The notes under the pieces: generated by a model
The model's database searches: none
Seen by the model: the letters and a program-made list of their open reading frames with translations, nothing else
What the model was told of the DNA's origin: nothing
Made by a program: the position numbers and the translations under genes
In this document: in pieces, positions 7,609 through 56,715 of the stretch
How the letters are laid out: each line of letters starts with the position of its first letter
Numbering within the stretch: the first letter of the stretch is position 1
NCBI RefSeq assembly: GCF_002952775.1
Contig: NZ_CP025066.1
Coordinates: 372,001 to 436,000, forward strand
Source of the DNA: Halalkaliarchaeum desulfuricum
Lineage (GTDB): Archaea > Halobacteriota > Halobacteria > Halobacteriales > Haloferacaceae
Direction of reading: 5' to 3'
Length of the DNA: 64,000 bases

Positions 7609-9435
7609 CTACCGACGCTGGAGATCGTGGAAGCTGATCCCCATCTGCCGCAGTCCCAGCAGTATGAAGAAGGTCATCCCGATGAACAGCGTCGAGAGCG
7701 CAGACACCAGTTCCAGGTTCGCCTCCTTCGTCCAGAGGTGGAACACTTCGATCGCGATGACCTCCGTTCCCGACGTGTACGTCATGATCGGGATCGTGAG
7801 TAGCTGGAAGATGTGGATCAACAGGTAAAACCAGATGACTGCAGCAGTGTTCCTGAACAGCGGCAGGAACACCTCGCGCATCCCCTGGAGCCACGAGGCA
7901 CCGAACAGCCGGGCGGATTCCTCCAGTTCGTCGTGGATCTGTACGACGTTACCGATCGCAATGCGCGAGGCGTACGGAATGAAGACGATGATACAGCCGA
8001 TCATGATGATCCACAACGTTCCGTACAGATCGAAGATCGGGTGTATTTTCCCGACCCACAGCCCCGTGAAGATGACCGCTGTGCCCATGATGATACCGGG
8101 GACCGCAAGCGGAGACAGACAGAGGAAATCGACGATTCCCCGCCCTCGATATTCTGTCCGTTCGGTAAAATACGCGACAGCCACGACCAGTGCAGTCCCG
8201 AGCGTTGCGCCACCCAGAGAAATAGCGATACTGTTCAGGAACGCCCGACGAACGTTTCGGTCGGTCACCGCCTCGAGGTAGTGTGCCAGTGTGAGGTCGG
8301 AAAGCGTCGGGATCCCCGTCCAGAAGGAGTGAAACGAAACGAGAATCATCACCAACACCGGGAGGACCCAGACGATGAAAAGCACTCCCCAGATCGACAG
8401 CGCCAGCGGCCAGCGCCAGCTCCCGAGTTCCCACTTCTTCGGCTTGTAGGACCGTCCAGTCACGGTCATATAATCTTCTTTCCGACTCGTCACGGACCGA
8501 TAGTAATAGGTGAGCACGGCGGTTACGGCGATGAGACTGAACGAGAGCGCTGCCGCCATCCCGTACTCCGGGGGCGCCCGCAGCGAGACTGCAGACCAGA
8601 TGGCTGTCGCGTACACGTCGAATCCCTCCGGCGCCCCGAGGATCGCGACGACCGAAAACTCACCCAACCCCCTGAGGAACGTCACCGTGAAGGCAGCCAG
8701 GATCGCCGGAACGACCAGCGGGAAGCTGATCGATCTAATCGTTCGGAGGATGCCCGCACCGTGGATCCGGCTCACCTCCTCGAGCTTCGGATCCATCTGC
8801 TGGAGCGCCGGAGCCGTGAGAAGGTAAAACGACGTCACAGCGTTGATACCGACGACGAACGCGATTCCCCAGCCAGTGAAGAGATGGCTCGACACAGCCT
8901 GGACGCCGGGCACCCAGCTCAGCGCCGACGTCACGAGCCCGTTATTCGGCCCGTAGGTCGCGATGTACATGATCGCGTAGATGTATCCCGGAACCGCGTA
9001 CGGGGAAACGATCACCAGCTCCATTGCACCCCGCGTCGGCAGGTCTGTCCGCACGAAGAGCCAGGCGAATCCCAGCCCGAACGTCATCGCGATCAGCGTC
9101 ATGCCGACGGCGACGAAAAGCGAATTCGCGAACAGCCCGGTGACGTCGTAAACTTGTTCGAGATACACCAGTTCGAAGTTTTCAAGGGTGAACGAGCCGC
9201 TGAAATCCCCCGGAAACCCGGACCAGAGACTCGACCAGAGCAGAAAGACGAGCGGAACGACGGTCAACACGACGAGCGCGACGACGGCTCCTCCGAGAAT
9301 GCCGTGTTTGACGACAGTGCCTCGAGTCACGCTTTCGACCGTGTCGGGAGCCATACCTGGCATCACGCCGATCGCACGGAGTGTCAGCTCACGGAGGGAG
9401 CTCACTGTCGCTTTGGCCGCTTTTTTGCCGTCCAT
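7609..9435 (-). CDS. ABC importer permease, Fe(III) (FbpB) family, two fused halves
   Basis: The 608-residue membrane protein has two homologous permease halves of about six spans each, the usual form of FbpB/AfuB-type permeases. Each half has an EAA loop that docks on the ATPase: EVSRIHGAGILRTIRS (about residue 220) and EESARLFGASWLQGMR (about residue 515). It lies downstream of the binding protein gene on the same strand, with a strong hairpin between them; the ATPase at 13681-14859 completes the importer. The family carries iron, thiamine, phosphonate or related anions. With three decarboxylase-family genes next door the substrate here may be organic, which is inference. Confidence 0.88.
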   Translation of the reverse strand: MDGKKAAKATVSSLRELTLRAIGVMPGMAPDTVESVTRGTVVKHGILGGAVVALVVLTVVPLVFLLWSSLWSGFPGDFSGSFTLENFELVYLEQVYDVTGLFANSLFVAVGMTLIAMTFGLGFAWLFVRTDLPTRGAMELVIVSPYAVPGYIYAIMYIATYGPNNGLVTSALSWVPGVQAVSSHLFTGWGIAFVVGINAVTSFYLLTAPALQQMDPKLEEVSRIHGAGILRTIRSISFPLVVPAILAAFTVTFLRGLGEFSVVAILGAPEGFDVYATAIWSAVSLRAPPEYGMAAALSFSLIAVTAVLTYYYRSVTSRKEDYMTVTGRSYKPKKWELGSWRWPLALSIWGVLFIVWVLPVLVMILVSFHSFWTGIPTLSDLTLAHYLEAVTDRNVRRAFLNSIAISLGGATLGTALVVAVAYFTERTEYRGRGIVDFLCLSPLAVPGIIMGTAVIFTGLWVGKIHPIFDLYGTLWIIMIGCIIVFIPYASRIAIGNVVQIHDELEESARLFGASWLQGMREVFLPLFRNTAAVIWFYLLIHIFQLLTIPIMTYTSGTEVIAIEVFHLWTKEANLELVSALSTLFIGMTFFILLGLRQMGISFHDLQRR

Positions 9436-9485
9436 CAGTGTGTCGAAGGCGATATCGTTGTCTCGAAATCAGCCGGGGTTAGATC

Positions 9486-9516
9486 GGGTCGAACCGATTC
9501 ATCGACGGTTCGATCC
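9486..9516 (-). other. Intercistronic stem-loop between binding protein and permease genes
   Basis: TCGAACCG at 9489-9496 pairs with CGGTTCGA at 9506-9513 around a nine-base loop, and the stem extends by GGG against TCC (one G-U) to eleven pairs. It lies 15 bases after the binding protein stop and about 50 bases before the permease start. Such hairpins often stabilise binding-protein mRNA or attenuate read-through, so that binding protein exceeds permease. No T-run follows it, so a classical terminator is less likely. Confidence 0.5.
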
Positions 9517-9530
9517 ATCGTCTGACCCGA

Positions 9531-49639: not shown

Positions 49640-49850
49640 CTTTTTTCGCGCTTGTAGAGCAACGGCAGTCGACGTAGGCTGTTTGTCGAAATCGGGCCTC
49701 AGGAACGGTAGTTCTGCCCATCTCGTACGAGCCGACGTCGGTGCCTCGCGCGCTTAATAAACTACATTTCGCGATAACAAATCGGTGGCCGAACCACTTC
49801 GCTGGGAACCTGGGATGCAGTAGCGTGGGGCTATTTTTTCGGTTCAGGTA
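49640..49850. other. Gap with no recognisable gene
   Basis: This 211-base gap between the nifU-like gene and the arsC remnant shows a T-run at 49641-49647, probably a terminator of the nifU-like gene, and an AT-rich patch at 49755-49780. No ORF with haloarchaeal codon use or RNA gene was recognised. Confidence 0.5.
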
Positions 49851-50146
49851 CTATCGAGCTGACTCGATTTCGTCGAAGAGGGAACGTACTCGCCGTTCGA
49901 TCTCGTCCCGGATTTCGGTGACCTTCGTCGGCGATTCCCCGGCGGGATCCTCCAGGTCCCAGTCCCGGTTCTCCCCGGCCTACCCGGCAGGATAGACGTC
50001 CTCTGCCGAACAGCCCATCGTGATGACGTAACGAGTGCGATCTCGCGGCTGCGCCCCCGACGCGTTACCTTAACGTTTCCCGCACGCGTAGGCCATCTGT
50101 GGTCGACCGGCGTTCTGGACGCAGACGAACACGATCCGTATCGTAT
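49851..50146 (-). pseudogene. arsC: Decayed arsC (thioredoxin-coupled arsenate reductase)
   Basis: On the minus strand one frame reads IRIVFVCVQNAGRPQMAYACGKR and then a stop, which is the N-terminal phosphatase-loop region of low-molecular-weight-type ArsC (normally C-x5-R, here CVQNAGR). A second frame resumes at RYVITMGCSAEDVYPAG, hits an in-frame stop, and continues AGENRDWDLEDPAGE to a normal C-terminus. About 60 codons of the middle are missing between the two parts. There is no usable start codon. The gene has been inactivated by a deletion, a frame change and a nonsense mutation. It lies just downstream of arsR2 on the same strand, in the place an arsC would have. Confidence 0.85.
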
Positions 50147-50240
50147 TTTCCGACTGGCCGTTCGGGTCAATATATCGGAGCCTCGACTGGGCGGGAATAA
50201 AACAAGAGATCTCGAGAGGGTCAGGTCTTGACGACCTCCG

Positions 50241-50576
50241 TCAACAGAGACGATGGACGATATCGACGACATCCTCGCCGCACTCGGTCGGTCGGTACGT
50301 CACGTAGTTACCCTCCCGGTCGGCCGTGACGAGTCCCGCCTCCTTGAGTTGTTTGAGGTGATAGGAGAGTTTCGAGTACTCGATGTCGAACAGTTCGACG
50401 AGGTCACAGACGCAAAGCTCCGATTCCTCGAGCAATCGCAAGATGAGGATTCGGCGATCGTCAGCGAGGGCCTTGAAGATGCGGTGAGCCGTCTCGACGT
50501 CACACGTCGAGACGATCGCCTCCATCTCGGCCATCGTCTCCGAGGAAACCCGGAAGTCGTTCGATTGTGAGGACAT
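50241..50576 (-). CDS. arsR: ArsR family repressor, second copy
   Basis: This 111-residue winged-helix repressor has ELCVCDLVELFDIEYSKLSYHLKQL, with the CVC arsenic-sensing motif and the recognition helix. It is not a close copy of the ArsR at 41455. It is the last intact gene of the minus-strand run from permease through thioredoxin-fold protein. The ATG at 50576 (MSSQSND) is chosen since the open frame further upstream is not ArsR-like. Confidence 0.9.
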   Translation of the reverse strand: MSSQSNDFRVSSETMAEMEAIVSTCDVETAHRIFKALADDRRILILRLLEESELCVCDLVELFDIEYSKLSYHLKQLKEAGLVTADREGNYVTYRPTECGEDVVDIVHRLC

Positions 50577-50946: not shown

Positions 50947-52110
50947 TTACAGCAGCAGGCCCCACATGAGGGCCGCGACCGTCGAGGCGACCGCGACGAG
51001 GGCGATATAGAGGGCAGTCTGTTTGGTGCCGATCGTCTTCCAGATGACGATCATGTTCGGCAACGACAGCGAGGGGCCCGCAAGCAGCAGCGCCAGCGCG
51101 GGACCGTCAGCCATCAGGCCGTTCGTGTAGCCGAACAGCGAGCCGACGATCGGAACCTCGAGCAACGTCGGCATGTACAGCACCGCGCCGATGACCGACG
51201 CCACCCCTGCCGACAGGACCGTCGTTTCGCCGAAGAGTTCCTGGGTCAACAGCCCGGGCGCGACCTGATGGGCGGCGAAGGTCTCGCCGCCGTTGGTCGT
51301 GACAGTCTCGAGGGGAGCCATCCCCTGGGCCACCGCGGCGATCCCACCGATGATCCCGATGATAAACGTCCCGACGATCAACAGCGGAAAGATCGTCCGG
51401 GTGAAAAACCACGTCTCCTGGAGCCAGTCGTCGATCTCGTCGCGGGAAAACTCCGAGTACAGTAGATACCCCAGCATCGCGAACAACGGTGCGAGGATCG
51501 GAGCCTTGATCGCCCAGGTGAGCAGCCCAGTCGCCGCGATCAGCAGGATCGCGACCTGCGTGCCGAAGAAGCCGGCAGTCACCCATTTCGGGCGCTGGGA
51601 CTCGGCGGCGTACCCCCCGTCGGTGGCGACGGTCTGGTTCTCGGGGCGATCCTCGTCGTCATCGCTCACGAAGACCAGCGCCATCGTCAGTCCGATTGCA
51701 GCGGCCATCACGACCGCGAAAAACGCTCGCGCACCGCCGAGGGGCAGTCCGAGGACGCGAGCAGTAAACACGACCGCCAGCACATTGATCGCCGGCCCCG
51801 AAAACAGGAAGGCGGTTGCAGGGCCGATCCCCGCGCCCTTCTTGTACAGGCCGGCGAACATGGGCAGGATCGTACAGCTACACACCGCGAGTGCGACGCC
51901 CGAAACCGACGCGATGGAGTAGGCCTGCAACTTCGGGGCCTCCGCGCTCAGGTACTTCGTGATGAAATGGTCGGAGAGGACCGCCGAGATCCCGCCGGCG
52001 ATAAAAAACGCCGGCACGAGACACGTGAGGACGTGTAGCGTAAGGTACGACAACGTCTCGTCGATTCCTGCCCGCAATATCTCAACGAGGAGTTCGATCT
52101 CCGGAACCAT
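50947..52110 (-). CDS. ArsP-like permease (DUF318 / COG0701 metal or metalloid efflux)
   Basis: The 387-residue membrane protein has about ten spans and the permease-family segments VALAVCSCTILPMFAGLYKK with closely spaced cysteines, GIGPATAFLFSGPAIN and the repeated GPSLSLPNMIVIWKTIG. Relatives export trivalent organoarsenicals (ArsP) or copper and zinc. A soluble loop near residues 165-190 is acidic. It is followed by the thioredoxin-fold protein and ArsR. A TTCAA-N7-TAGAA site lies directly before the ATG, matching the ferredoxin promoter site. Substrate is inferred from context. Confidence 0.85.
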   Translation of the reverse strand: MVPEIELLVEILRAGIDETLSYLTLHVLTCLVPAFFIAGGISAVLSDHFITKYLSAEAPKLQAYSIASVSGVALAVCSCTILPMFAGLYKKGAGIGPATAFLFSGPAINVLAVVFTARVLGLPLGGARAFFAVVMAAAIGLTMALVFVSDDDEDRPENQTVATDGGYAAESQRPKWVTAGFFGTQVAILLIAATGLLTWAIKAPILAPLFAMLGYLLYSEFSRDEIDDWLQETWFFTRTIFPLLIVGTFIIGIIGGIAAVAQGMAPLETVTTNGGETFAAHQVAPGLLTQELFGETTVLSAGVASVIGAVLYMPTLLEVPIVGSLFGYTNGLMADGPALALLLAGPSLSLPNMIVIWKTIGTKQTALYIALVAVASTVAALMWGLLL

Positions 52111-52199: not shown

Positions 52200-52559
52200 T
52201 CAATCCCCTGCCGACCTCGCTCCGAACTCGTCTTCGAGTTGCTCGCGGGCCCGGGCGAGCAACCCGTGTTCGCGAATCAGTTCCCCGACGTACTCCTCGT
52301 CCGGGAACTCGATCGCCCCGGTCGGACAGTACGTCCCACACGTCGTGCATCCGACCTTGCACCGGTACGGGTTTTCGACAGTAGCCACCTCCTGCTCGTC
52401 GTCGTATCCGAGAACGTTCCGGCCGCAATTGATTACACAGAGGCCACACCCCCCACAGGAGTCCGAATCGATCGTCGGATGCCACTCGATGGTTCGTCGG
52501 TCGAGACCCATCCACTCGGCGAATTTCTCGGGGAGATCTCCGGACCGGTTACTCACCAT
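52200..52559 (-). CDS. Two-cluster [4Fe-4S] ferredoxin-like protein in the ars island
   Basis: The 119-residue protein has two cluster motifs: CGGCGLCVINCG (CxxCxxCxxxC, about residue 35) and CKVGCTTCGTYCP (CxxxCxxCxxxCP, about residue 67). A charged N-terminal part of about 30 residues (EKFAEWMGLDRRTIEW) and a C-terminal helix flank them. It is not a standard stand-alone ferredoxin. It lies between the M20 peptidase and the permease, with its own promoter and TTCAA-N7-TTGAA site. A redox role in arsenic handling or in permease function is inferred from position. Confidence 0.78.
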   Translation of the reverse strand: MVSNRSGDLPEKFAEWMGLDRRTIEWHPTIDSDSCGGCGLCVINCGRNVLGYDDEQEVATVENPYRCKVGCTTCGTYCPTGAIEFPDEEYVGELIREHGLLARAREQLEDEFGARSAGD

Positions 52560-52618: not shown

Positions 52619-53875
52619 TCATTCGTCAAAAGAGCGTGTGGCAAACAACGGCGGTAGCTCCAGATACCACGCGGCCGTTCGTTCGAGTGCCTCGACGGAA
52701 ACGTACTCGTCGACCTCGTGGGCGGTTCCGCTACCGACGGCAGACTCGACGGCCGGAACGCCCGCGCCGCGAAGCTTCTTCGCGTCGCCGCCGCCGGTCG
52801 CACAGCGGGCAAGCGGCCGGTCCGGGAGGACGTCCTCGGCCGCCGCAGTGACGGCCTCGACGATCGGAGCCGACGGCTCGACGTAGGTTCCCTCGGCCCA
52901 GGAAACGTCCCGGATCGAGACGCTCTCCCGGGCGTCGATACACGACCGGATCTGATCCAGGACAGCCTCGGTTGACGCCCCCGGCGTTACCCGAACGTCG
53001 AGTTCGGCGGTCGCAGTCTGTGGGACGCTGTTGACGGTGTTGCCCCCGACCAGACGCCCGAGGTTGAACGTGGGGTGTTCGAAGAGCTCCTCGAGGTGTG
53101 TCCCCGCCCCGCATGGACAGGATCCGTAGTACGCCCGAGACTCCTCAAGGATCCGTTCGATCGCCGGATCGTACTCCAGTCGACGTGACGTAATCGACTC
53201 CCGACAGGAATCGATCACCGAGTAGAGGTAATCGATCGCGTTCTCGCCGTTCATCGGCCGGGAGCCGTGGGCGGCACGGCCGGTCGCCTCGAGGGTGAGC
53301 CAGATCCGGCCCTTGTCGGCGACGGCGATCGAGTAGCGGTCGTCGACGCAGGTCGTCTCTCCCACGACGGCCCCGTCGGCGCCGATCGCGTCGGCCTCGA
53401 GGACGGCGTCGATGCCGTGGGTCCCGCCGGTCTCCTCGTCGCTGACGAATGCGAACTGCAACGTGACCGGCGGCGGTTCCGCCGCCGTCGCAAACGCCCG
53501 CAGCGTTTCGAGCATCACCGCGACGGTCCCCTTCATGTCGGTCGCCCCGCGGCCGTAGACGCGGCCGTCACGGATCTCCCCGAGGGGATCGAGAGACCAC
53601 GCCTCGCGGTCGAACGGCACCGTGTCGAGGTGCCCCTCGTACAGCAGTGTCCGGTCGGATCTTCCGGATAACGTCGCGACGAGGTTCGGCCTGGAAGGAT
53701 CGGGCGCGATCCATTCGGTTTCGACGTCGAACTGCGAGACGCGTTCGCGCACCCACTCCAGGACCGACCGCGTGTCCCCCGGCGGATTCTGGGTGTCGAA
53801 GGACAACAGCTCCGCTGTCGAGTCGAGGAGGCGCTCACGCCGCCGGTCCGTTCTGTGGATCTGGTTTCGATTCAT
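52619..53875 (-). CDS. M20 family metallopeptidase (ArgE/DapE type)
   Basis: The 418-residue enzyme shows the M20 metal-site motifs: GHLDTVPFD (residue about 85), GRGATDMKG, DEETGGTHGI with the catalytic glutamate, and the dimerisation lid (WLTLEATGRAAHGSRP). It hydrolyses amide bonds of an N-acylated amino acid or dipeptide-like substrate. A CPC motif in YYGSCPCGAG at about residue 265 is an unusual addition in the lid domain. It sits inside the arsenic run, but no direct arsenic role is known for the family. Confidence 0.85.
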   Translation of the reverse strand: MNRNQIHRTDRRRERLLDSTAELLSFDTQNPPGDTRSVLEWVRERVSQFDVETEWIAPDPSRPNLVATLSGRSDRTLLYEGHLDTVPFDREAWSLDPLGEIRDGRVYGRGATDMKGTVAVMLETLRAFATAAEPPPVTLQFAFVSDEETGGTHGIDAVLEADAIGADGAVVGETTCVDDRYSIAVADKGRIWLTLEATGRAAHGSRPMNGENAIDYLYSVIDSCRESITSRRLEYDPAIERILEESRAYYGSCPCGAGTHLEELFEHPTFNLGRLVGGNTVNSVPQTATAELDVRVTPGASTEAVLDQIRSCIDARESVSIRDVSWAEGTYVEPSAPIVEAVTAAAEDVLPDRPLARCATGGGDAKKLRGAGVPAVESAVGSGTAHEVDEYVSVEALERTAAWYLELPPLFATRSFDE

Positions 53876-53923
53876 TTGCGTGCTCCCGATAGCGCGTTCA
53901 GTGGACACCCCCGCGCGACTCGA

Positions 53924-54112
53924 TCAGCAACAACTGTCGTCGCCACACACCGCCCCGTAGTCGATCCCGATCTCCTGTTCGATTGCCTGGTTACAGCGCA
54001 TCACGAGGCCGAAGAACCGCTTGCGGTCGAGGTCCTCCTGTTCGGCAGCGAGGGCGTCACCGAACGCCTCGGCGGCCTCGAGCACGTCGGATTCGGCGGT
54101 AGTCAACAGCAC
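53924..54112 (-). CDS. Tiny Cys-Cys-tailed protein in the ars island
   Basis: About 62 residues: a helical AESDVLEAAEAFGDALAAEQEDLDRK stretch, FFGLVMRCNQAIEQEIG, and a tail with VCGDDSCC at the extreme C-terminus. I do not recognise the family. It starts inside the end of the YlbF-like gene, at GTG 54112 or TTG 54106, after GGAGGTG, so it is translationally coupled to it. The two last cysteines and the CxxxxC before them could bind As(III) or an Fe-S cluster. The neighbour upstream ends in GGGCC in the same way. Confidence 0.55.
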   Translation of the reverse strand: MLLTTAESDVLEAAEAFGDALAAEQEDLDRKRFFGLVMRCNQAIEQEIGIDYGAVCGDDSCC

Positions 54113-54486
54113 CCACCTCCCATCGACCGGGCGAACTCCTCGCCGATCCGGTCGCTGATCACGTCGTTGGTCCGGTCGAGCAGTGCGATCAGTTCCTCTT
54201 CGGCTTGCATGTACTCGCTGATCGTTTCGTCGTCGTTCATTTCCTGTTGGATGTCCCGAAGTTCGGCCATCACTTCGGGATCGTGGCCGCCGCGTTGCAG
54301 TTGCATCTGTTTCTGCTGGAACCGTCGGAGCAGTTGCTGTGCCCCCTCGTCGTCGTCGAGACGTTCTCGCGCGTCGACGAATCGCCGATACTGTTTCGAA
54401 TCCCTGATCGCCTCCACGAACTCGTGCAATCGCGCGTTGACCTCGTCGTGAGTCGATTGTTGTTCGCTCATGGGTTGTTCGCTCAT
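54103..54486 (-). CDS. YlbF/YmcA-family protein with Cys-Cys tail
   Basis: The 127-residue helical protein matches the YlbF/YmcA family: QQSTHDEVNARLHEFVEAIRDSKQYRRF, LLRRFQQKQMQLQ and a middle coiled-coil region, ending GGGCC. In Bacillus, YlbF, YmcA and YaaT form an Fe-S-containing complex that controls RNase Y; the archaeal role is unknown. The ATG overlaps the arsA stop (ATGA), and its end overlaps the tiny Cys-Cys protein. Its place between ArsA and another Cys-Cys protein suggests a role linked to metalloid or Fe-S handling. Confidence 0.72.
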   Translation of the reverse strand: MSEQPMSEQQSTHDEVNARLHEFVEAIRDSKQYRRFVDARERLDDDEGAQQLLRRFQQKQMQLQRGGHDPEVMAELRDIQQEMNDDETISEYMQAEEELIALLDRTNDVISDRIGEEFARSMGGGCC

Positions 54487-56387
54487 TGGAGTTCCGGCTG
54501 TGGTTTCTCTGCGGTTGGTTCACCGAGTATCTCGGCCCCGAACGACTGGAGGTCGTCCAGGCCGGTCGGTTCGTCCTTTCGCAACGGGACGAGCAGCATC
54601 GGTACCTCGAAGCGGTCGTCGATCCGGTCGAGATACTCCCGCTGTTGCCGGCGGCGGCTCTCGAAGAAGGCGTTATCGCCGTACTCCTCGGGGAGCAGGT
54701 AGTTGACCGCCACCAGCGAAGTCTCGATCCCCACCTGATCGCGGAGGTCCTCCGCGGCCCGATAGGCCTCCATCATCGGCGTGTACTCGGGATACATCAC
54801 GAAGACGAACGAACTCCGCTCGGGATCGCGCATCGTCTCGATGACCCGATCGTAGCGCTGTCCCGATTCGGAGGCCTCCTTCGTGAGCGAACCGAGATCC
54901 ATAAAGCCCTTCCAGTCGGAAGGCAGTTCCAGCAACCGAAGCGTGTGGCCCGTCGGCGCGGTGTCGAAGACGACCACGTCGTACCCCTCGACCTCGAAGT
55001 AGTCGACGAACTTCTCCAGTGCGGCCATCTCTTCGGCACACGGCGACTCCAACTCCTCTAAGACCTGCTGTTGGGCCGCTTCGAGGTCCCCGCCCTCGAA
55101 GGACTGTTCGACCTGTTCGAGCGTCCGCGCTTTGTACTCTTCGAGGGCCTTCTCCTGGTCGATCCGGGCGGCATGCAGCCCGTCGAGACCGACCGCCGTC
55201 GGTTCGTGCTCCACCTCGGTTCCGAATACGTCCTTGAGGTGGGCTGCCGGGTCGGTCGTCACGATCAACGTCTCGTAGCCCCGTTGCGCGAGTGAGGTTG
55301 CCGCCGTCGCCGCGGTCGTGCTCTTTCCGACGCCACCCTTGCCGGTGAAAAACAGGTATCGGGTGTCCTCGTGTGGTCGAAGCTGCTCCATGACGGCGTC
55401 GGTGTCGGTCGTCGCATCGAGGGTTCCGACGGCGTCGCCGCCCGACGGAGTCGATTCGACGTCGATCGTCGGCTCGAACCCCTCATACAGGGCTGCGGCA
55501 ACGTCCGAGAGTAGCTCCGAGCCCGTGATCTCGCCGGGTCGGAGCGGGTACGTCACGACGGGTTCGTCCGCGAACTCGCGCTCGACGTATTCGAGGACCG
55601 CCTGTTCGTCTGCTCGCTTGCTCTCGAAGAAGGGGTCCTCACAGACCTCCTCGGGGAGATAGCCGTTGACGACGACCAGGTCCGTGTCGATTCCCAGCGC
55701 CGCCAGTTCGCCGGCGCTGCGCTCGATCTCGTTGATCGCGGACTCCTCGGGCTTGCCGACGAAGACGAACGAACTCCGGTCGCCCTCCAGCGTTTCGATG
55801 GCGTTCTCGTAGGTTTCTTTCTGGTCGACCAGCGAATCCGCCGGCCCGACACAGGTCGCGCCACCGTCCTCGAGTTCCTCGTTCCACCCACTCGGGAGTT
55901 CCATGAGGCGGATGGTGTGCCCCGTGGGGGCCGTATCGAAGACGATCACGTCGTGGTCGGGATCGTCCATGAACTCGACGAACTTGTCGAAGGCGGCGAT
56001 CTCCTCGACACAGGGGCTGTCGAGTTGTTCTTCGACGGTCTGGAGCTGTTTTTCGTCCAGCAACTCTCGCAACGGTTCGAGGGTCCGCTGGCGGTACTCC
56101 TCGGCGGCCCGATCGGGATCGATCTCGATGGCCTCGAGGTTCTCGACGCCGTGGATCCCCGTCACCGAGTGGCCGATCGACTGGTCGAAGATGTCACCGA
56201 GGTTCGGAGCGGGATCCGTCGTAACGAGCAGGGTGTCATAGCCCTCCTCGGCGAGCCACTGTGCGGTCGCACAGCTCACTGTACTCTTGCCGACGCCCCC
56301 TTTACCGCTGAAGAACACGAACTCGGTCGCGTCGCCGGCTGGTTCGACAAGCTCTCGTGGTGTTTCTCGTGGTGCGTTTTCCGTCAT
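54483..56387 (-). CDS. arsA: ArsA arsenite-transport ATPase, tandem form
   Basis: The 634-residue cytoplasmic ATPase has two homologous halves (A1 and A2). Each carries the P-loop GKGGVGKST and the DTAPTGHT switch. Cysteines in SPCVEE and SPCAEE, one in each half, fit the As(III)-binding site of known ArsA. It receives As(III) from ArsD and energises export through an efflux pump. The ATG at 56387 (MTENAPRE) is chosen since the open frame upstream lacks homology. arsD ends one base upstream and YlbF overlaps downstream, so this is one operon. Confidence 0.95.
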   Translation of the reverse strand: MTENAPRETPRELVEPAGDATEFVFFSGKGGVGKSTVSCATAQWLAEEGYDTLLVTTDPAPNLGDIFDQSIGHSVTGIHGVENLEAIEIDPDRAAEEYRQRTLEPLRELLDEKQLQTVEEQLDSPCVEEIAAFDKFVEFMDDPDHDVIVFDTAPTGHTIRLMELPSGWNEELEDGGATCVGPADSLVDQKETYENAIETLEGDRSSFVFVGKPEESAINEIERSAGELAALGIDTDLVVVNGYLPEEVCEDPFFESKRADEQAVLEYVEREFADEPVVTYPLRPGEITGSELLSDVAAALYEGFEPTIDVESTPSGGDAVGTLDATTDTDAVMEQLRPHEDTRYLFFTGKGGVGKSTTAATAATSLAQRGYETLIVTTDPAAHLKDVFGTEVEHEPTAVGLDGLHAARIDQEKALEEYKARTLEQVEQSFEGGDLEAAQQQVLEELESPCAEEMAALEKFVDYFEVEGYDVVVFDTAPTGHTLRLLELPSDWKGFMDLGSLTKEASESGQRYDRVIETMRDPERSSFVFVMYPEYTPMMEAYRAAEDLRDQVGIETSLVAVNYLLPEEYGDNAFFESRRRQQREYLDRIDDRFEVPMLLVPLRKDEPTGLDDLQSFGAEILGEPTAEKPQPELQ

Positions 56388-56388
56388 A

Positions 56389-56715
56389 TTAGGCCGTTCG
56401 AGTGAGCCGCCGTGAGATCTCGTCGTCGAACTCGTCGTACGTGAGATACGCACCCTCCGCGACGATCTCGTCGTCGACGGTGATGACCGGAAGGACTTCC
56501 GGTCCTTTCTCCTGAACGGTGTCGTAGATCCGCTCGTTCTCGAGGAACACGCCGACATCGTGTGCCAGGCTTGCCCTGGTCACGTCGAGTTCGTCGTACT
56601 CCTCTTCGAGCCTGTCGACCGTTCTCGTGATTCGAACGAGTTCCTCGTCGGGATCGGGACCACAGACTCCCGTCGGACAACACATCGCTTCCTCGAAAAT
56701 GGTTACGTCGATCAT
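56389..56715 (-). CDS. arsD: Arsenic metallochaperone ArsD
   Basis: The 108-residue protein carries Cys12, Cys13 and Cys18 in EEAMCCPTGVCG, exactly the positions used by the R773 ArsD chaperone to bind As(III) and pass it to ArsA. That positional match supports the ATG at 56715. An in-frame ATG at 56796 with AT-rich sequence further upstream would give 27 more residues and cannot be excluded. The gene is first in arsD-arsA-ylbF. An operator related to that of acr3 lies 10 bases before the start. Confidence 0.93.
   Translation of the reverse strand: MIDVTIFEEAMCCPTGVCGPDPDEELVRITRTVDRLEEEYDELDVTRASLAHDVGVFLENERIYDTVQEKGPEVLPVITVDDEIVAEGAYLTYDEFDDEISRRLTRTA

Follow-up and report, generated by a model that had tools for sequence, protein, structure and literature searches.

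HcsL and HcsS, two small proteins encoded behind the arsenical ATPase gene arsA in Halalkaliarchaeum desulfuricum, form a gene pair that is tied to arsD and arsA across Halobacteria, and both end in a conserved vicinal pair of cysteines. By profile comparison the two appear to be paralogues of the YlbF family. We put at close to an even chance the reading that they form a heteromer, which offers ArsA its C-terminal thiol pairs and, in the course of efflux, hands on or retains As(III)/Sb(III). The main rivals to such a role in thiol relay or holding are an Fe-S device and a docking factor for ArsA.

In the window, a 64,000-nucleotide stretch of the H. desulfuricum genome (contig NZ_CP025066.1, positions 372,001 to 436,000), the genes follow one another on the minus strand in the order arsD, arsA, hcsL and hcsS. 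The arsD gene (56389..56715, minus strand) encodes a predicted As(III) metallochaperone with a CCxxxxC motif and no other cysteine (NF033727, 110.7 bits against a cut-off of 90; PF06953), and arsA (54483..56387, minus) a two-domain arsenical ATPase of the ArsA_halo family (NF041417, 1135.6 bits against a cut-off of 800). The product of hcsL (54103..54486, minus; NF041416, PF06133) is a YlbF-family helical protein of 127 aa with the C-terminus MGGGCC, and that of hcsS (53924..54112, minus, with its stop at 53924; NF041415) is a protein of about 60 aa with the C-terminus VCGDDSCC. An ATGA overlap is common to the end of arsA and the start of hcsL, whereas hcsS shares sequence with the 3' end of hcsL and not with arsA; hence, hcsS is coupled directly to hcsL, and to arsA solely via hcsL. 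The sequence-only reading of this DNA had described two overlapping small proteins ending in Cys-Cys, and its coordinates, frames and ends (GGGCC and VCGDDSCC) are accurate; its further statement that both are coupled to arsA holds directly for hcsL, and for hcsS only through hcsL.

Further downstream on the same strand lie a 4Fe-4S ferredoxin-like gene (52200..52559, minus; PF12837, PF00037), situated between a gene for an M20-family metallo-hydrolase and a permease gene and seen at this locus only among the 70 loci examined; the permease itself, of the ArsP_1 (DUF318) family (50947..52110, minus; PF03773, 214.8 bits), which is a candidate membrane partner; and an ArsR/SmtB-like regulator (50241..50570, minus, with an approximate start), recognized by tblastn against annotated ArsR together with its open reading frame. 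Behind arsR, an arsC-like low-molecular-weight phosphatase (49844-50272, minus) looks broken, its matches being split across frames with stops.

Three consecutively numbered NCBIfam models fit the locus, namely NF041415 for HcsS, NF041416 for HcsL and NF041417 for ArsA_halo. HcsL aligns over positions 1-113 of 113 of its model at 154.3 bits (cut-off 140), terminal CC included, and HcsS over 1-55 of 55 at 90.2 bits (cut-off 55), terminal SCC included, which places the window proteins in the same families as the 'halo-CC-star' HcsL and HcsS of NCBIfam. RefSeq plasmid copies bear the hcsL and hcsS labels and show the same order behind ArsA_halo. The families had thus been named previously, and the term 'undescribed' used for them in the sequence-only reading fits their function only, the NCBIfam entries being names without an assigned function; a literature search on these names, and on YlbF in combination with arsA, turned up no relevant paper. 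New here, beyond these names, are the co-occurrence, the tail conservation, the homology of HcsS to HcsL, the absence of RicT, a GGCC tail that appears to be ancestral, the loci outside Halobacteria and the proposed mechanism. ArsD is likewise a small Cys-bearing product of the arsA operon with a vicinal Cys pair. However, both Hcs proteins are of the YlbF type, entirely helical, and match neither PF06953 nor NF033727; they hence lack the ArsD domain with its CCxxxxC motif, and a genuine ArsD is already present in the operon. The C-terminal vicinal cysteines also resemble those of the Sao metal systems, whose proteins end in Cys-Cys-COOH or Cys-Sec (CU) and are encoded in predicted mercury/metalloid operons (PMC13188914); the SaoC model (NF040734) matches neither HcsL nor HcsS. 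Orf7 and orf8 of Bacillus CDB3 were considered as Hcs equivalents and rejected, being HesB-like and phosphatase proteins rather than YlbF.

The distribution of these families was surveyed in 292 Halobacteria genomes, drawn evenly, with presence taken as a score above the model cut-off. HcsS is found in 57, HcsL in 52 and ArsA_halo and ArsD in 53 each, and hcsL-hcsS lies directly behind arsA in about one fifth of haloarchaea. All 52 genomes with HcsL also have HcsS, and the overlaps with ArsA and ArsD amount to 50-52 genomes. Across the 292 genomes the co-occurrence of HcsL with HcsS, of HcsL with ArsA_halo and of HcsS with ArsD shows few exceptions, with Fisher p values of about 1e-50 or below that are descriptive only, since the genomes are related. 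At the 70 loci examined, arsD, arsA, hcsL and hcsS follow one another in this order with few departures, and they are contiguous in nearly all; the ars cluster of Halobacterium salinarum pNRC100 also includes hcsL-hcsS. The earlier proposal of an accessory pair tied to ArsA thus gains support from linkage across Halobacteria. Some exceptions to the linkage are broken genes, i.e., a fragmented HcsL in one genome (G247) and HcsS remnants at three loci (L092, L093, L099). Additionally, a plasmid of Halalkalicoccus jeotgali carries an intact orphan HcsS, and one genome (G129) has ArsA_halo with neither arsD nor Hcs, at a locus (L094) where the neighbours look like what we take to be a Tat-signal molybdopterin oxidoreductase and its 4Fe-4S subunit. 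Mirror-tree correlation is moderate (0.65 for HcsL-ArsA and 0.33 for HcsL-HcsS) and carries no weight in the argument. Other genes near the 70 loci encode ArsR (60), ArsC (46), ArsM (14), Acr3 (12) and a DUF318 permease (about 12).

Absence of the tails near arsA in related genomes had been set beforehand as the observation that would count against the pair; inspection of the relatives shows that the tails are conserved. At 60 homologous loci, CC closes every one of the 55 intact HcsL sequences, and no other cysteine of this protein is conserved. HcsS ends in CC in 53 of the 60, the other seven being without a full CC end, and further has a Cys in the helix in 57 and a Cys ahead of the tail in 59. 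Outside the tails, the proteins diverge among loci by an average of some 42-45% of positions; the conservation of the tail pair is far beyond chance. At the nucleotide level the tail end of hcsL hardly varies, six codons being identical in 35 of 56 loci. In the window, the Gly-Gly-Gly-Cys-Cys codons (54106..54120, minus) read GGA GGT GGG TGC TGT, and their first seven bases constitute a Shine-Dalgarno-like GGAGGTG for hcsS (54120-54114, minus), which can start either at a TTG (54106), 7 nt from this element, or at a GTG (54112), the choice made for RefSeq homologues. The tail codons thus double as translation signals of hcsS, which inflates their conservation, and part of it could be at the nucleotide level. 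Carried to its end, this would make the conserved tail mainly a translation signal, with GGAGGTGGGTGCTGTTGA providing hcsS with its ribosome site and start, and GGGCC arising as a by-product, and the near-frozen codons and the GGAGGTG placed 7 nt ahead of the TTG are what such a constraint might produce. However, CC is kept with the codons TGT TGC in two hcsL genes (L079, L083), at two loci where hcsS starts past the hcsL stop (L123, L124) and in a chromosomal paralogue, which keeps GGCC through changes of codon and has no overlapping gene behind it; together, these cases show selection on the tail at the amino-acid level. The CC end of HcsS itself is also kept without any overlap. Hence, on the basis of the codon swaps and the non-overlapping cases, the translation-signal explanation is largely rejected, and we grant it hardly any likelihood.

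The chromosomal paralogue is a lower-scoring YlbF protein (about 50-73 bits) found in most Halobacteria genomes, such that HcsL and the paralogue together cover 220 of the 292; the genome of the window has no YlbF paralogue above threshold. In all 16 copies inspected (L100-L115) GCC is followed by two final residues, most often giving GGCCQD, and HcsL groups apart from them in a clade with full support. In one family the copies adjoin genes for a MinD/ParA-type ATPase and a DUF7125 protein, in others a divergent dph2, and no ars genes were found in these neighbourhoods. Since a chromosomal YlbF protein without ars context ends in GGCCxD, the GGCC tail is, as judged from these sequences, not arsenic-specific and older than the arsenic link, and the earlier view of the CC tail as an arsenic adaptation is not supported.

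Comparisons of sequence and structure place both proteins in a wider framework. HcsL matches PF06133 at 79.5 bits against a gathering cut-off of 23.9 and has the YlbF helical fold, its AF2 model having a pLDDT of 85; among PDB entries it finds RicF by sequence (E 4e-5), and the top PDB matches of the fold search are RicF, YmcA and SP1372. HcsS has no Pfam match, and its AF2 model is a helical hairpin of moderate quality (pLDDT 74), for which the fold search gave no significant match, a result that does not argue for a new fold. Iterated profiles nevertheless connect HcsL and HcsS, and hhalign aligns HcsS with HcsL 64-122 at a probability of 95.8%, or 84% with the tails removed, as compared with at most 3.8% in 20 column-shuffled profiles and 0.09% for a reversed profile. 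On this profile evidence, HcsS is homologous to the C-terminal half of HcsL, so that the two members of the pair are YlbF paralogues, as are RicF and RicA of Bacillus. The sequence-only reading, which described a YlbF-like protein and an overlapping tiny one, missed that HcsS is itself a half-length YlbF paralogue. The likeness to RicAFT extends to the RicF fold and detectable sequence similarity to RicF in HcsL, and to cysteines near the C-termini of both pairs, whereas HcsS is of half length, the Hcs tails stop exactly at CC and the genes sit in ars operons.

In the RicF-RicA heterodimer, the tail cysteines RicF C134/C146 and RicA C141 ligate [4Fe-4S] cluster 2 with RicT (PMC6751060), and the earlier remark linking YlbF proteins to Fe-S complexes was apt in this regard. 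By this homology and fold match to RicF/YmcA, the HcsL/HcsS tails might hold or repair a [4Fe-4S] cluster, and in this way shield Fe-S enzymes or detect damage by arsenite. The chromosomal GGCC paralogues, in many genomes divergent neighbours of dph2, a gene of diphthamide synthesis, and the 4Fe-4S protein downstream in the window would be in keeping with such a device. However, RicT (PSP1, PF04468), the source of a ligand and of all of cluster 1, is absent from all 116 haloarchaeal genomes searched, that of H. desulfuricum included, in a search whose control finds it in B. subtilis. Further, the linkage is to arsD-arsA and not to Fe-S assembly genes, and the ferredoxin is confined to a single surveyed locus, on account of which we regard the Fe-S explanation as unlikely. 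YlbF family membership, and the action of RicAFT in RNA processing, might alternatively suggest that the pair regulates ars mRNA, as RicA/RicF direct RNase Y; with the RicAFT component that contacts RNase Y, RicT (PMC10470536), missing and ArsR already in the operons, this is quite improbable. The absence of RicT implies that HcsL-HcsS is at most RicAF-like with a different third partner, for which ArsA is by inference the natural candidate.

Loci outside Halobacteria bear on the autonomy of the pair. Two genomes of the same phylum (G356, G477) have, in one direction, arsD, a CMD-domain gene, arsA, hcsL (with GGCC), hcsS and acr3, and at L123 and L124 hcsL-hcsS accordingly has arsA on one side and acr3, which encodes an arsenite exporter, on the other. 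The CMD-domain protein encoded between arsD and arsA at L123 (9241-9606, minus) and L124 contains a CxxC motif. Two further non-halobacterial archaea of one genus (G547, G578) have two tandem hcsL-hcsS pairs (L125, L133), with no arsA or arsD within the stretches read; here, the second HcsL Cys has become Tyr or Arg and the helix Cys of HcsS Met or Val. These sequences suggest that hcsL-hcsS is a unit of its own, whose cysteines may erode without an adjacent ArsA, a pattern drawn from a single genus. A single-sequence scan of genome contigs gave two relatives only, and the comparison therefore rests on the genome searches; a scan of viral contigs found no Hcs relatives. The non-halobacterial gene order is also pertinent to a possible role in docking or assembly, in which the pair would tie ArsA to the membrane pump or stabilise ArsA, its cysteines serving for contact or redox locking only. 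Given that the exporter varies (Acr3 at 12 of 70 loci, DUF318-type at about a fifth), an adaptor could be needed, and both the placement between arsA and acr3 and the MinD/ParA-type ATPase beside the chromosomal YlbF-GGCC gene in one family would suit it. However, it gives no reason for both partners to have retained a terminal pair of adjacent cysteines, and we hold it to be just as unlikely as the Fe-S device.

Turning to the thiol relay or holding role, the remaining components have the requisite cysteines. ArsA C126, C179 and C450 are invariant in 59 sequences and align with C113, C172 and C422 of R773 ArsA (alignment to PDB 1f48), which we take to be the classical metalloid ligands. All 57 ArsD homologues have CCxxxxC and no further Cys. 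With the ArsD site and the three ArsA metalloid-site cysteines present, the putative thiol-transfer chain is present. In R773 ArsD, extra pairs (Cys112-113 and Cys119-120) are reported, and only Cys12-Cys13 is conserved across ArsD homologues (PMC12607644).

The observed linkage, coupling, tail conservation, homology and fold family suggest a mechanism in which HcsS, as a shortened YlbF copy that would retain only the C-terminal helical hairpin, and HcsL probably bind one another, by analogy with RicF-RicA, leaving flexible tails with vicinal cysteines exposed. We infer that the tails most likely adjoin ArsA, with As(III)/Sb(III) bound through their thiolates, and that the metalloid, whatever the direction of transfer, could be handed among ArsD, ArsA and the exporter, or held during ArsA turnover. 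The tails may further supply in trans the sites of the extra R773 ArsD Cys pairs that are absent from haloarchaeal ArsD; the conservation of Cys12-Cys13 alone means that these extra pairs may not matter. Against this mechanism, the chromosomal GGCC paralogue without ars neighbours indicates that tail chemistry need not be arsenic chemistry, and there are pairs without a nearby arsA, ArsA_halo without Hcs and the seven of 60 HcsS without a full CC.

In Halobacterium, deletion of arsADRC confers As(III)/Sb(III) sensitivity, arsB is dispensable and a novel transporter has been proposed (PMC3600143). For a system that confers resistance without a role for ArsB, HcsL and HcsS, which are so tightly linked to this ArsA and are encoded on the same plasmid, are the obvious candidates for what is missing. 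A more far-reaching version of the relay treats HcsL-HcsS as an ArsA partner of a new kind; in it, the CC tails of a YlbF heterodimer would give in trans the thiols missing from ArsD and relay As(III)/Sb(III) from ArsD-ArsA to an interchangeable exporter. This version would explain the unusual arsADRC extrusion, and we consider it rather doubtful in its entirety. If true, the YlbF fold would have been recruited from RNA and Fe-S work into metalloid handling.

Finally, the gene for the M20-family metallo-hydrolase in the window (52619..53908, minus; PF01546) starts 15 nt past hcsS, and such a gene recurs downstream of hcsS in nine of the 70 loci (e.g., L034, at 8259-9518, and also L044, L058, L079, L083, L089 and L096). 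A gene for an Rdx (SelW-like) protein follows hcsS in five other loci, and these M20 and Rdx neighbours possibly hint at a link to thiol metabolism.
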